This document shows, in pieces, positions 1,214-6,181 of a stretch of 9,360 bases of DNA. Below the pieces are notes generated by a model that was not told the origin of the DNA, ran no database searches, and was given only the letters and a program-made list of their open reading frames with translations. The first letter of the stretch is position 1. Each line of letters begins with the position of its first letter. The position numbers and the translations under genes were made by a program. Origin of the DNA: Oribacterium sp. (GTDB lineage: Bacteria; Bacillota_A; Clostridia; Lachnospirales; Lachnospiraceae); the NCBI GenBank assembly GCA_017940955.1, contig JAGAXP010000142.1, positions 1 to 9,360 on the forward strand, given 5' to 3'.

Positions 1214-2986
1214 TCATCCTAGCAGCGACAACACACTCTGAGGAGATTGGTTTGCCTGAGCAAGCATGGACTGGGCAGCCTGCTGTAAAATATTGTTTTT
1301 GGTATATGCCGATATCTCCTTAGCCATATCTGTATCTCTGATCCTTGACTCAGCGGCAGTAGTATTTTCATTTGATACCTTCAGATTACTCAAAGTATGT
1401 TCCAGTCGATTATGCTTAGCCCCAAAATATGCTCTCGTTGCTGAAGTATACTCGACTGCATCCTTCAGCTCACCCATGGCTTTATTAGCATTTTGTAGCG
1501 ATGTTACATTGCTATTACCAAGCCCAAGTCCGTCACTTGACATATTGAAGCGATAGATTGTTATCGTTTCATCTGCGGTTGGTCCGATCTGAAGAACTAC
1601 ATCTCCTCCGCCTTTTCCGTAACCATCAGTATTTACATCATTCACATGAAAATGTTTTTCTGTATAGTCATTATAGAAATTGGGATTATTCAAGGATGAG
1701 CTAAGACCTGAAATAAAGCTTCCACTTCCTTCTGATCCTGTTTCATTGTCTACTAATTTCACAAGAAAATTCACAAAGTCATTGGCTGAATTACTACCGT
1801 CAAATCTGGCCAATATATCTGACTTAGTGAATCCCGTTCTTGTAGAAATGGCTTGCTCCAATGATTTATGGTTATTTATAATCTCATACAATATAGAGTC
1901 TATCCCACTATTAATGTTGGCAATATTAGGAGCTACATTTGTTTGAGTATAGCCTCCATGGTCATAGGGATTTCCTAAGTAGGATAAAAAACCTATATAT
2001 GCAGTCATCAACGCTCCTGTTCCATAAACCTCATCTGTCGGAGAGCCGTGATTGGCCAAAGCAGCTTTCATAGCATTTGTTTTCTGCCCTGAAGTCACTT
2101 TAGCTACATCTCTTATATCGTAGTTCCATCCTGCAGTAAAAATTCCTCCAGTAAGCTGTGCAGTTCCCTCAATAAACCATAAATTATCCGAACCTTCCAA
2201 TTCTGACATGGATGTATCGGCATTTGCCAATGCAACACCCATGACTCCATGCATCATTTCATGAGCAAGAGTCGATTCATAAGTGGCAGTGCTAATAGAA
2301 TCAATCTTATCAAGATCAGCATTTACTACGATATGACCTCTTCCTGAACCAAGCATTGTACCTCCTGCAGTTGCAAGAGTTGACCCTGGAAGGCTTTTCA
2401 GGTTTATATCAATATCAGTTGTAGGAAAACCAGGCTTCAATGACGACCAGTATGCATTCAGAATGGCCTCGCCTACATTACATACAATATTGGAAACATC
2501 CTTCACAGACTGAGTGATTTCGTCCACTGTATGAACAGATATTACGCTATTAATGTCTCCTGCGGCACGAATCCCATTCAAGAGATTTATTCCGTTAAAT
2601 TCAGTATTTTCGGAAATCCTGTCAATTTCCTTCTTTAATTCCTGAAACTCAGCGTCGATATGCTTTCTTACATCATCTGTGTAAGTGCCATTTGCAGCCT
2701 GCGTTGCCAATGTAGTGCCTCTTTCCAGCATTGCATGGACTTCCGTCAACGCTCCCTCTGCGACCTGAATCAGTGAAATACCGTCTTCGACATTGTTCTC
2801 AGCCTGATCAAGACCTTTTAGCTTATTCCTCATAGATTCCGAAATCGCAAGTCCTGCCGCATCATCTCCCGCCCGATTGATCTTATAGCCCGAAGACAGC
2901 TTCTCAAGATTCTTATTCAGTTTAGTTTTATTTTTTCCTAAATTTCGTTTCGCGTTCAAGGCTGACATATTATGCTGTAAGATCAT
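1214..2986 (-). CDS. Flagellinolysin: flagellin with an inserted zinc metallopeptidase domain (590 aa)
   Basis: Residues 1-140 are a typical flagellin D0/D1 N-terminus (LEKLSSGYKINRAGDDAAGL; SENTEFNGINLLNG). Residues 460-590 are the matching C-terminus (LQIGPTADETITI; HNRLEHTLSNL; AAESRIRDTDMAKE; final VLSLLG). Between them, in place of the surface-exposed D2/D3 region, lie about 320 residues with a peptidase active site. This is HEMMH at 242-246 (two zinc-binding His and the catalytic Glu) and WFIEGTAQ at 270-277, whose Glu273 is the expected third zinc ligand of gluzincins, as in the clostridial collagenase (M9) pattern W-F-x-E-G. This is the architecture of flagellinolysin, a protease displayed along the flagellar filament. 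It should be exported unfolded by the flagellar type III apparatus and so has no signal peptide. GAGGG lies about 8 bases upstream of the ATG. The gene follows the larger flagellin by 36 bp with no terminator between, so they are probably co-transcribed. Catalytic activity and substrate are inferred. Confidence 0.93.
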   Translation of the reverse strand: MILQHNMSALNAKRNLGKNKTKLNKNLEKLSSGYKINRAGDDAAGLAISESMRNKLKGLDQAENNVEDGISLIQVAEGALTEVHAMLERGTTLATQAANGTYTDDVRKHIDAEFQELKKEIDRISENTEFNGINLLNGIRAAGDINSVISVHTVDEITQSVKDVSNIVCNVGEAILNAYWSSLKPGFPTTDIDINLKSLPGSTLATAGGTMLGSGRGHIVVNADLDKIDSISTATYESTLAHEMMHGVMGVALANADTSMSELEGSDNLWFIEGTAQLTGGIFTAGWNYDIRDVAKVTSGQKTNAMKAALANHGSPTDEVYGTGALMTAYIGFLSYLGNPYDHGGYTQTNVAPNIANINSGIDSILYEIINNHKSLEQAISTRTGFTKSDILARFDGSNSANDFVNFLVKLVDNETGSEGSGSFISGLSSSLNNPNFYNDYTEKHFHVNDVNTDGYGKGGGDVVLQIGPTADETITIYRFNMSSDGLGLGNSNVTSLQNANKAMGELKDAVEYTSATRAYFGAKHNRLEHTLSNLKVSNENTTAAESRIRDTDMAKEISAYTKNNILQQAAQSMLAQANQSPQSVLSLLG

Positions 2987-5207: not shown

Positions 5208-5423
5208 ATGATACGGTTGCGAATAAAAGAGATACTTGAAGAACAAAACCATACAAAATACTGGTTACAGAAGCAACTTGGTGAAACAAGCTACAGAAAC
5301 CTCAGCAGACTTGTGAATAATGAGGTTATTTCAATACGCCTTGAAACAATAGAAAAGCTGATCACTGTTTTGCAATGCACTCCCGGCGATCTTTTTGAAA
5401 AAATAGAAGAAGACGAAAATTGA
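5208..5423 (+). CDS. Small XRE/Cro-C1-type helix-turn-helix regulator (71 aa)
   Basis: A 71-residue, single-domain DNA-binding protein. The Cro/C1 pattern is visible throughout: an opening helix (RLRIKEILEEQN), a helix-turn-helix around residues 17-37 (YWLQKQLGETSYRNLSRLVN), then the typical RLETIEKLITVLQCTPGDLFE segment shared by short XRE regulators such as the YozG type. The C-terminus is acidic (KIEEDEN). There is no effector or protease domain. The ATG at 5208 has GGAGGT 5 bases upstream, and the gene ends in a strong terminator that begins within its stop codon, so it is monocistronic. It is divergent from the flagellin genes across 193 bp holding an inverted repeat. That makes it a candidate local regulator or autoregulator, but the link to flagellin control is inferred from position only. 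Confidence 0.9.
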   Translation: MIRLRIKEILEEQNHTKYWLQKQLGETSYRNLSRLVNNEVISIRLETIEKLITVLQCTPGDLFEKIEEDEN

Positions 5424-5629: not shown

Positions 5630-6181
5630 ATTCTGACAGAGTATTTGCTGACATATGATGCACTGACTGATAAAATCGAACGCCTCGACAGACGTATCGA
5701 GGAGCTCGCCTCACAGGAAGTTTATGCAGAAAAAGTAAAAATCCTTACCTGCTACATCGGAGTAAAAACCAATACAGCCTTATCAACCATCGTAGAAGTA
5801 GGAGATTTCCACAGATTTGCAACTGCTGAACGCTTTGCCAGCTATATCGGATTGGTTCCCGGAGAAGACTCCAGCGGACCGGATTGCACGCGTTTAAGCA
5901 TTACAAAGGCAGGTAATCGTCATGTCAGACTTTTGCTGGTAGAATCAGCAAAATGCTTTGGACGTGGTGAAATTGGATTCAAATCAAGAGAATTAAAAGC
6001 CCGCCAGGCAGGTAACCGTTCTGAAGTGATTGCGTATGCCGATAGAGCTAACGAACGTCTCAGAAGGCGGTATTACAAGATGGTTCTGGGTCAGAATAAG
6101 AAACATAACGTAGCAACTGTCGCAATTGCACGAGAATTAGCTTGTTTTATGTGGGGAATGATGACTGATCACATCGCTTAA
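5630..6181 (+). pseudogene. IS110/IS1111-type transposase, C-terminal fragment
   Basis: The open frame runs from just after a TAG (5627-5629) to TAA at 6179-6181. It encodes a coiled segment (DALTDKIERLDRRIEELA) and then the Transposase_20 (IS116/IS110/IS902) domain. Family motifs are TCYIGVKTNTALSTIVEVGDF, of which the central GVKTNTAL is typical, then SYIGLVPGEDSSG with the catalytic-serine SSG at 5870-5878, and ITKAGNRHVRLLLVESA. Intact members are about 400 aa with an N-terminal RuvC-like DEDD domain of about 150-200 residues. That whole part is missing and the palindrome at 5504-5627 sits in its place. There is no ATG near the start; a TTG at 5645 lacks a ribosome binding site. The fragment should not be able to transpose alone. 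The remaining frame is undamaged, so the truncation is probably recent. Confidence 0.88.

Follow-up and report, generated by a model that had tools for sequence, protein, structure and literature searches.

Most of the flagellinolysin genes that we examined are linked to a small gene for a zinc-ribbon protein. In the window, by which we mean the whole 9,360-nucleotide stretch of Oribacterium sp. DNA analysed here, this gene lies beside one for a flagellin that carries a putative zinc peptidase between its two conserved ends (Table 1). Flagellinolysin is an already described kind of protein, the family having been described in 2017, and the window gene adds another member to it; if confirmed, the linked zinc-ribbon gene matters more than the flagellinolysin itself. 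A cell should be ill served by a zinc peptidase that is active or folded while still in the cytoplasm or the narrow export channel, and the linkage turns the control of the peptidase before export into a testable question. Our reading, a guess to which we give a probability of roughly 40%, is that the zinc-ribbon protein is a partner dedicated to flagellinolysin in many Clostridia and acts in the cytoplasm as its chaperone, guard or zinc handler.

Table 1. Coordinates of the features discussed (positions of the window unless a locus is named)
Feature	Position	Strand	Basis or remark
Zinc-ribbon protein, 123 aa	616..987	minus	ATG at 987; listed open reading frame begins at 1122
Flagellinolysin gene P0001, 590 aa	1214..2986	minus	One open frame, no internal stop
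Flagellin_C, residues 507-589	1220..1468	minus	Pfam PF00700, E 9.5e-26
Putative peptidase insert, residues 140-506	1469..2569	minus	NF033876 match at residues 110-521; alignments A1 and A6
WFIEGTAQ, residues 270-277: predicted third ligand Glu273 and basement Ala276	2156..2179	minus	W, F, E, G and A invariant
HEMMH, residues 242-246: two predicted zinc ligands and general base	2249..2263	minus	Motif position and invariance
Flagellin_N, residues 4-139	2570..2977	minus	Pfam PF00669, E 2.3e-44
Second flagellin, 663 aa	3023..5014	minus	Upstream of flagellinolysin; only Pfam Flagellin_N and Flagellin_C above cut-offs
Small Cro/C1-type HTH gene	5208..5423	plus	PF13443, E 1.2e-11; divergent from flagellin pair
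IS110-family transposase, C-terminal part	5645-6181	plus	PF02371
Second-flagellin homologs	L001, 2117-4228; L016, 5977-7923		
Loci with zinc-ribbon family members	Window, L001-L004, L049, L122, L123, L135-L140, L165-L171		

A flagellinolysin gene in the window

The product of the larger gene is very probably a flagellinolysin, as the original prediction had it, to judge from a curated profile, a flagellin-insert-flagellin architecture and the invariance of its catalytic residues. The NCBIfam model NF033876 ('flagellinolysin') matches the protein over all 384 model positions (206.2 bits, E 1e-60), a narrow match that exceeds the curated cut-off of 205 by just 1.2 bits. The coordinates first proposed for the open reading frame were exact and lacked only the strand, which is minus; a GAGGG lies a few bases 5′ of its ATG. 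Pfam recovers the intact flagellin ends that had been described around the insert and finds no family above cut-off between them in the 590-residue protein. The insert had been put at about 320 residues; with Flagellin_N ending at residue 139 and Flagellin_C beginning at 507, it comes to ~367.

Both motifs occupy the residue positions originally given for them, HEMMH at 242-246 and WFIEGTAQ with Glu273, and the expected zinc ligands and catalytic Glu (H242, E243, H246 and E273) are kept in the window protein and invariant in two alignments. We searched ~5.8 billion proteins with the insert, scoring only the 7995 candidates that shared most words, and among these found 11 proteins: one 99% copy, four at 53-62%, one of which bears the name flagellinolysin (Oribacterium sp. 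WCC10), and six at 30-37%. The first alignment holds 11 proteins, namely that of the window and ten others at 36-73% identity, and excludes the 99% copy; H242, E243, H246, W270, F271, E273, G274 and A276 are invariant in it. The second, of 18 inserts, joins that of the window to 17 that share 18-58% identity with it, and includes those of G428, G583 and G491, whose genes score 392-419 bits with NF033876. Its 15 invariant columns include H242, E243, H246, M249, W270, F271, E273, G274, A276, Y321 and Y330. The NF033876 match, together with the invariance in 11 proteins and 18 inserts, rules out a chance HExxH. With the residues of its site intact, the peptidase domain can reasonably be said to look active.

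The wider relationship of the insert is fainter, and there are hints that it is a gluzincin-type zinc peptidase, distant kin of clostridial collagenase. A profile of the 18 inserts, searched against the PDB, weakly matches the peptidase unit of the M9 collagenase ColG (7z5u, E 0.0043; 4are, E 0.0098). The matched span, profile positions 101-150, contains both HExxH (109-113) and the Glu of the third ligand (138), with H242, H246 and E273 at positions 109, 113 and 138. In that search flagellin chains outscore ColG, via other parts of the insert, and ColG differs in being a collagenase and not a flagellin. Scans of single inserts with Pfam (E up to 0.1) weakly matched M9 and Peptidase_MA_2 in four of the 18 each, whereas the insert of the window matched no Pfam peptidase family above cut-off and gave only SprT-like, at E 0.094. 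The comparison with gluzincin and M9 families that had been proposed as a check bears the homology out, weakly, through the similarity around HExxH and M9 matches in some inserts, though not in the window's own.

By analogy with the studied members, the protein would be exported and assembled into the filament with its peptidase in the outward-facing variable domain; filament display is suggested by the case of Clostridium haemolyticum, and zinc binding and zinc-/calcium-dependent proteolysis by the two members studied. Its targets would probably be proteins or peptides close by in the gut. Flagellinolysin is most likely mixed with other flagellins in the filament, of which the product of the adjacent flagellin gene may be one.

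The three loci closest to the window are all from Oribacterium. LivM of the window shares 95% identity with its counterpart in Oribacterium sp. C9 and 90% with the WCC10 homolog, and an Oribacterium or a close relative is very likely the host; against this, UBA4274, despite carrying the flagellin pair, yielded no close match to LivM. Plasmid records gave 20 matches to flagellinolysin, none covering 80% (maximum 34%, from the flagellin N-terminal side). The same peptidase domain was also seen without flagellin ends in L133 (794-2968), L134 (6321-8702) and L163 (3264-5888), the L133 and L163 proteins beginning with a signal-peptide-like stretch as judged by eye; Clostridia may thus also have secreted relatives of this insert. 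Very long flagellins occur in L131 (1898-5662, 1255 aa) and L132 (6097-9378, 1094 aa), the latter combining the peptidase domain with another long stretch that has no annotation.

Linkage between zinc-ribbon and flagellinolysin genes

The zinc-ribbon protein starts with MG, carries four CxxC pairs and ends with WD. Its start is backed by relatives that begin at the same MG, and a GAAGG lies five bases before the ATG. The protein matches nothing above any curated Pfam or NCBIfam cut-off: it shares CxxC pairs with Pfam zinc ribbons (Zn_ribbon_8, LysW, DZR and others), but those matches fall below cut-offs, and members of the window's family have in common an initial MG and a final WD. Searched with a profile, the protein database yielded 11 proteins among 319 candidates, including a near-copy of the window protein, none of them named or Pfam-annotated. 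Weak profile matches in the PDB include a zinc-finger protein of artificial design (E 0.0004), subunit P of RNA polymerase (E 0.0025) and, further down, Zn-ribbon RNA-binding proteins (E 0.1-0.2). There was no zinc-ribbon match in plasmid records.

Among the first 35 loci, a zinc-ribbon homolog adjoins flagellinolysin in 4 of 4 readable cases and is absent from the 31 others; one of the 31 (L023) has masked sequence where the insert would be and was not counted as flagellinolysin. Each of the 4 flagellinolysin genomes has one zinc-ribbon match, and 3 other genomes have none. When 397 genomes from the family to which the window belongs were queried with its zinc-ribbon protein irrespective of gene position, 16 gave a match, leaving 14 with full-length or near-full-length homologs once G081 and G119, with matches of 36-43 residues inside long frames, were dropped. 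Thirteen of the 14 homologs adjoin flagellinolysin on the same strand; the last (G248) sits close to the end of its contig, the available side being free of flagellin, and is kept as a zinc-ribbon case. In a profile search of 394 genomes of the family, 16 genomes reached at least 88 bits, and in 15 of them the match adjoins flagellinolysin. Because L048 and L050 (G396 and G071) had entered alignment A5 on account of their location in flagellinolysin loci, the position-blind count is 13 of 14 and not 15 of 16. With genomes that are related treated as independent, Fisher's test on 15, 1, 3 and 375 yields a p of about 3e-23.

In a class draw of 391 genomes the three strong matches were G003, G621 and G633; the G621 gene adjoins an intact flagellinolysin, and that of G633 a flagellin with a truncated peptidase part. 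Weaker relatives were found in G054 (61 bits) and in G333, G012, G300, G777 and G046 (about 34-42 bits). The fetched stretches of the first five hold no flagellin, and the G046 match is located at a contig end. That distant relatives occur without flagellin nearby indicates that the wider superfamily has other uses.

Counted from the side of flagellinolysin, our tally comprises 27 genes: those of the window, L001, L002 and L004, 18 from family-draw genomes and 5 from the class draw, with disrupted copies included. It omits G099, G309 and G665, which have a peptidase-like domain without flagellin ends, and, apart from G633, other matches below about 83 bits, including two further places in G200 and those in G087 and G300. 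By profile, 21 of the 27 have an adjoining zinc-ribbon gene (20 of 26 without G633, whose flagellinolysin match is 61 bits and which entered through its zinc-ribbon), 2 have a short look-alike and 4 have neither. The gene lies downstream of flagellinolysin in 12 of the 21 cases and upstream in 9. The look-alikes, in G583 and G491, are proteins of 106-110 aa encoded directly downstream with a similar plan (an MG start, LG in G491; three CxxC; an FYD end); they score 9-10 bits against the family profile, and a local profile comparison aligns their first 26 residues only. No neighbour of the zinc-ribbon plan was found beside flagellinolysin in G387, G283, G285 and G428, the last having an 88-aa Cys-containing neighbour of another kind, so the presumed partner does not occur throughout. 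Scanning for the plan without a profile agrees with these counts: it returned 61 frames in all loci, many being the same gene fetched twice, and 5 of them (L077, L088, L090, L126 and L127) have no flagellin within 1.5 kb.

Possible roles of the zinc-ribbon protein

As a partner, the zinc-ribbon protein may keep the peptidase unfolded, inhibited or zinc-free until flagellar export or, alternatively, may manage its zinc, and its gene would remain beside flagellinolysin whatever the gene order. The inclusion bodies and self-cleavage described for recombinant H. gracilis flagellinolysin (PMC7643111) plausibly fit the need for such a partner, without proving it. In the literature searched, which leaves most subscription papers outside, there was no paper joining flagellinolysin and a zinc ribbon and no accessory protein of enzymatic flagella, and the passages retrieved do not treat the cell's control of a flagellar zinc peptidase before export. 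A toxin-immunity reading was considered and rejected: a distant relative in L126 lies near a WapI-like immunity gene, but the other proteins scanned in the stretches of L126 and L127 do not clearly make up such a system, and the zinc-ribbon relatives there are distant (37-42 bits).

Nucleic-acid binding is common among zinc ribbons, and the main rival to the partner role makes the protein a regulator of flagellin expression that acts in this way, a prospect we regard as unlikely but serious. The zinc-finger, RNA polymerase and RNA-binding proteins among the weak PDB matches speak for it, as does the position of the gene between another flagellin gene and flagellinolysin in three loci (G621, G364 and G200). 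Yet flagellin matches occur in 213 of 397 genomes, while strong zinc-ribbon matches are limited to 16 of 394, all but one beside flagellinolysin, a distribution that argues against a regulator. The pairing would need no functional tie at all if it reflected the shared ancestry of one locus. Over 17 pairs, zinc-ribbon distances track those of the peptidase (Mantel r 0.66) only a little more closely than those of Flagellin_N (r 0.60; p 1e-4 for both), which is only what co-inheritance predicts, and the genomes are related to each other, so that the counts are not independent. We nevertheless consider shared ancestry an improbable explanation, since adjacency is kept despite the changes of order and four other genes of the window are not comparably kept across the first 35 loci: no match was found to dapF or the transposase, the HTH gene was matched only in L001 and weakly in L031, and LivF only by unrelated ABC proteins at 26-28%.

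A different doubt concerns the peptidase, which might be a catalytically dead relic that merely shapes the filament surface. Broken or reduced flagellinolysin genes do exist in relatives, amounting to 5 of the 27 examined, partly perhaps through assembly error: L002 (6001-7767) has an in-frame stop, G345 and G038 have stops, G290 has a broken frame in which no HExxH was found, and G633 has a large in-frame loss, its peptidase part breaking off at HExxH. In G104 no WF.EG was found. The frame of the window, however, is intact and keeps every catalytic residue, and these residues are among the few columns that stay invariant in inserts whose identity to that of the window falls as low as 18%; we therefore rate a dead relic as very unlikely.

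Second flagellin and neighbouring genes

The variable domain of the second flagellin spans residues about 140-585 (~446 residues) and matches no Pfam family above cut-off. A protein search found five relatives besides itself, all with flagellin ends. A CxxC in this domain is invariant in 8 of 8 aligned sequences, and the domain also holds a conserved WIQCSS stretch; of the 93 distinct full flagellins of the loci collected, 7 carry a CxxC within their variable region. The flagellin pair lies side by side in Oribacterium UBA4274 (L001), where a 77% identical copy of the small HTH gene holds the corresponding place, that gene being matched otherwise only in L031 (35%). [Clostridium] aminophilum (L016) has the second flagellin and no flagellinolysin in the fetched stretch, and the flagellin beside the G200 flagellinolysin (L052) weakly matches the later part of the variable domain (E 0.0007). 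The transposase fragment lies between the flagellin pair and genes for an ABC transporter of branched-chain amino acid type. Scanning for sigma-28-type promoter patterns gave 35 matches against a shuffle mean of 25, a count reached by 6 of 200 shuffles, and sigma-70 and terminator scans stayed near the shuffle mean; no operon claim is therefore based on these scans.

Comparison with known flagellinolysins

The family was described by Eckhard and colleagues in 2017 (PMC5595980), with stress on conservation over pseudogene formation, and a second member, HgrFlaMP of Hylemonella gracilis, in 2020 (PMC7643111). The two characterised members, from C. haemolyticum (FliA(H)) and H. gracilis, are both reported to be proteases, HgrFlaMP being a Ca-dependent zinc peptidase. 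To them the window adds an Oribacterium-type case; neither Oribacterium nor Lachnospir- appears in the main texts of PMC5595980 and PMC7643111. HgrFlaMP and the window protein have a common architecture, but the host of the former is Gram-negative and the neighbours named for its gene include those for a NUDIX hydrolase and MarR.

FliA(H), as described in PMC5595980, has zinc ligands His233, His237 and Glu262, general base Glu234 and basement Ala265, and its E234A variant is without activity. Flagellin N and C domains flank a peptidase insert in both proteins, and both have HExxH, a distal Glu and an Ala three residues further on (233-237, 262 and 265 against 242-246, 273 and 276), although the spacing from HExxH to Glu is two residues longer in the window protein. 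A comparison by published residue positions gives no clear counterpart of the Ca-site Asp206: D224 of the window lies 18 residues before HExxH, against 27 for Asp206, and is invariant in the 11 proteins but not in the 18 inserts. The window gene also differs from that of FliA(H) in its surroundings, where it is adjoined by a second flagellin with a large variable domain and by the zinc-ribbon gene.
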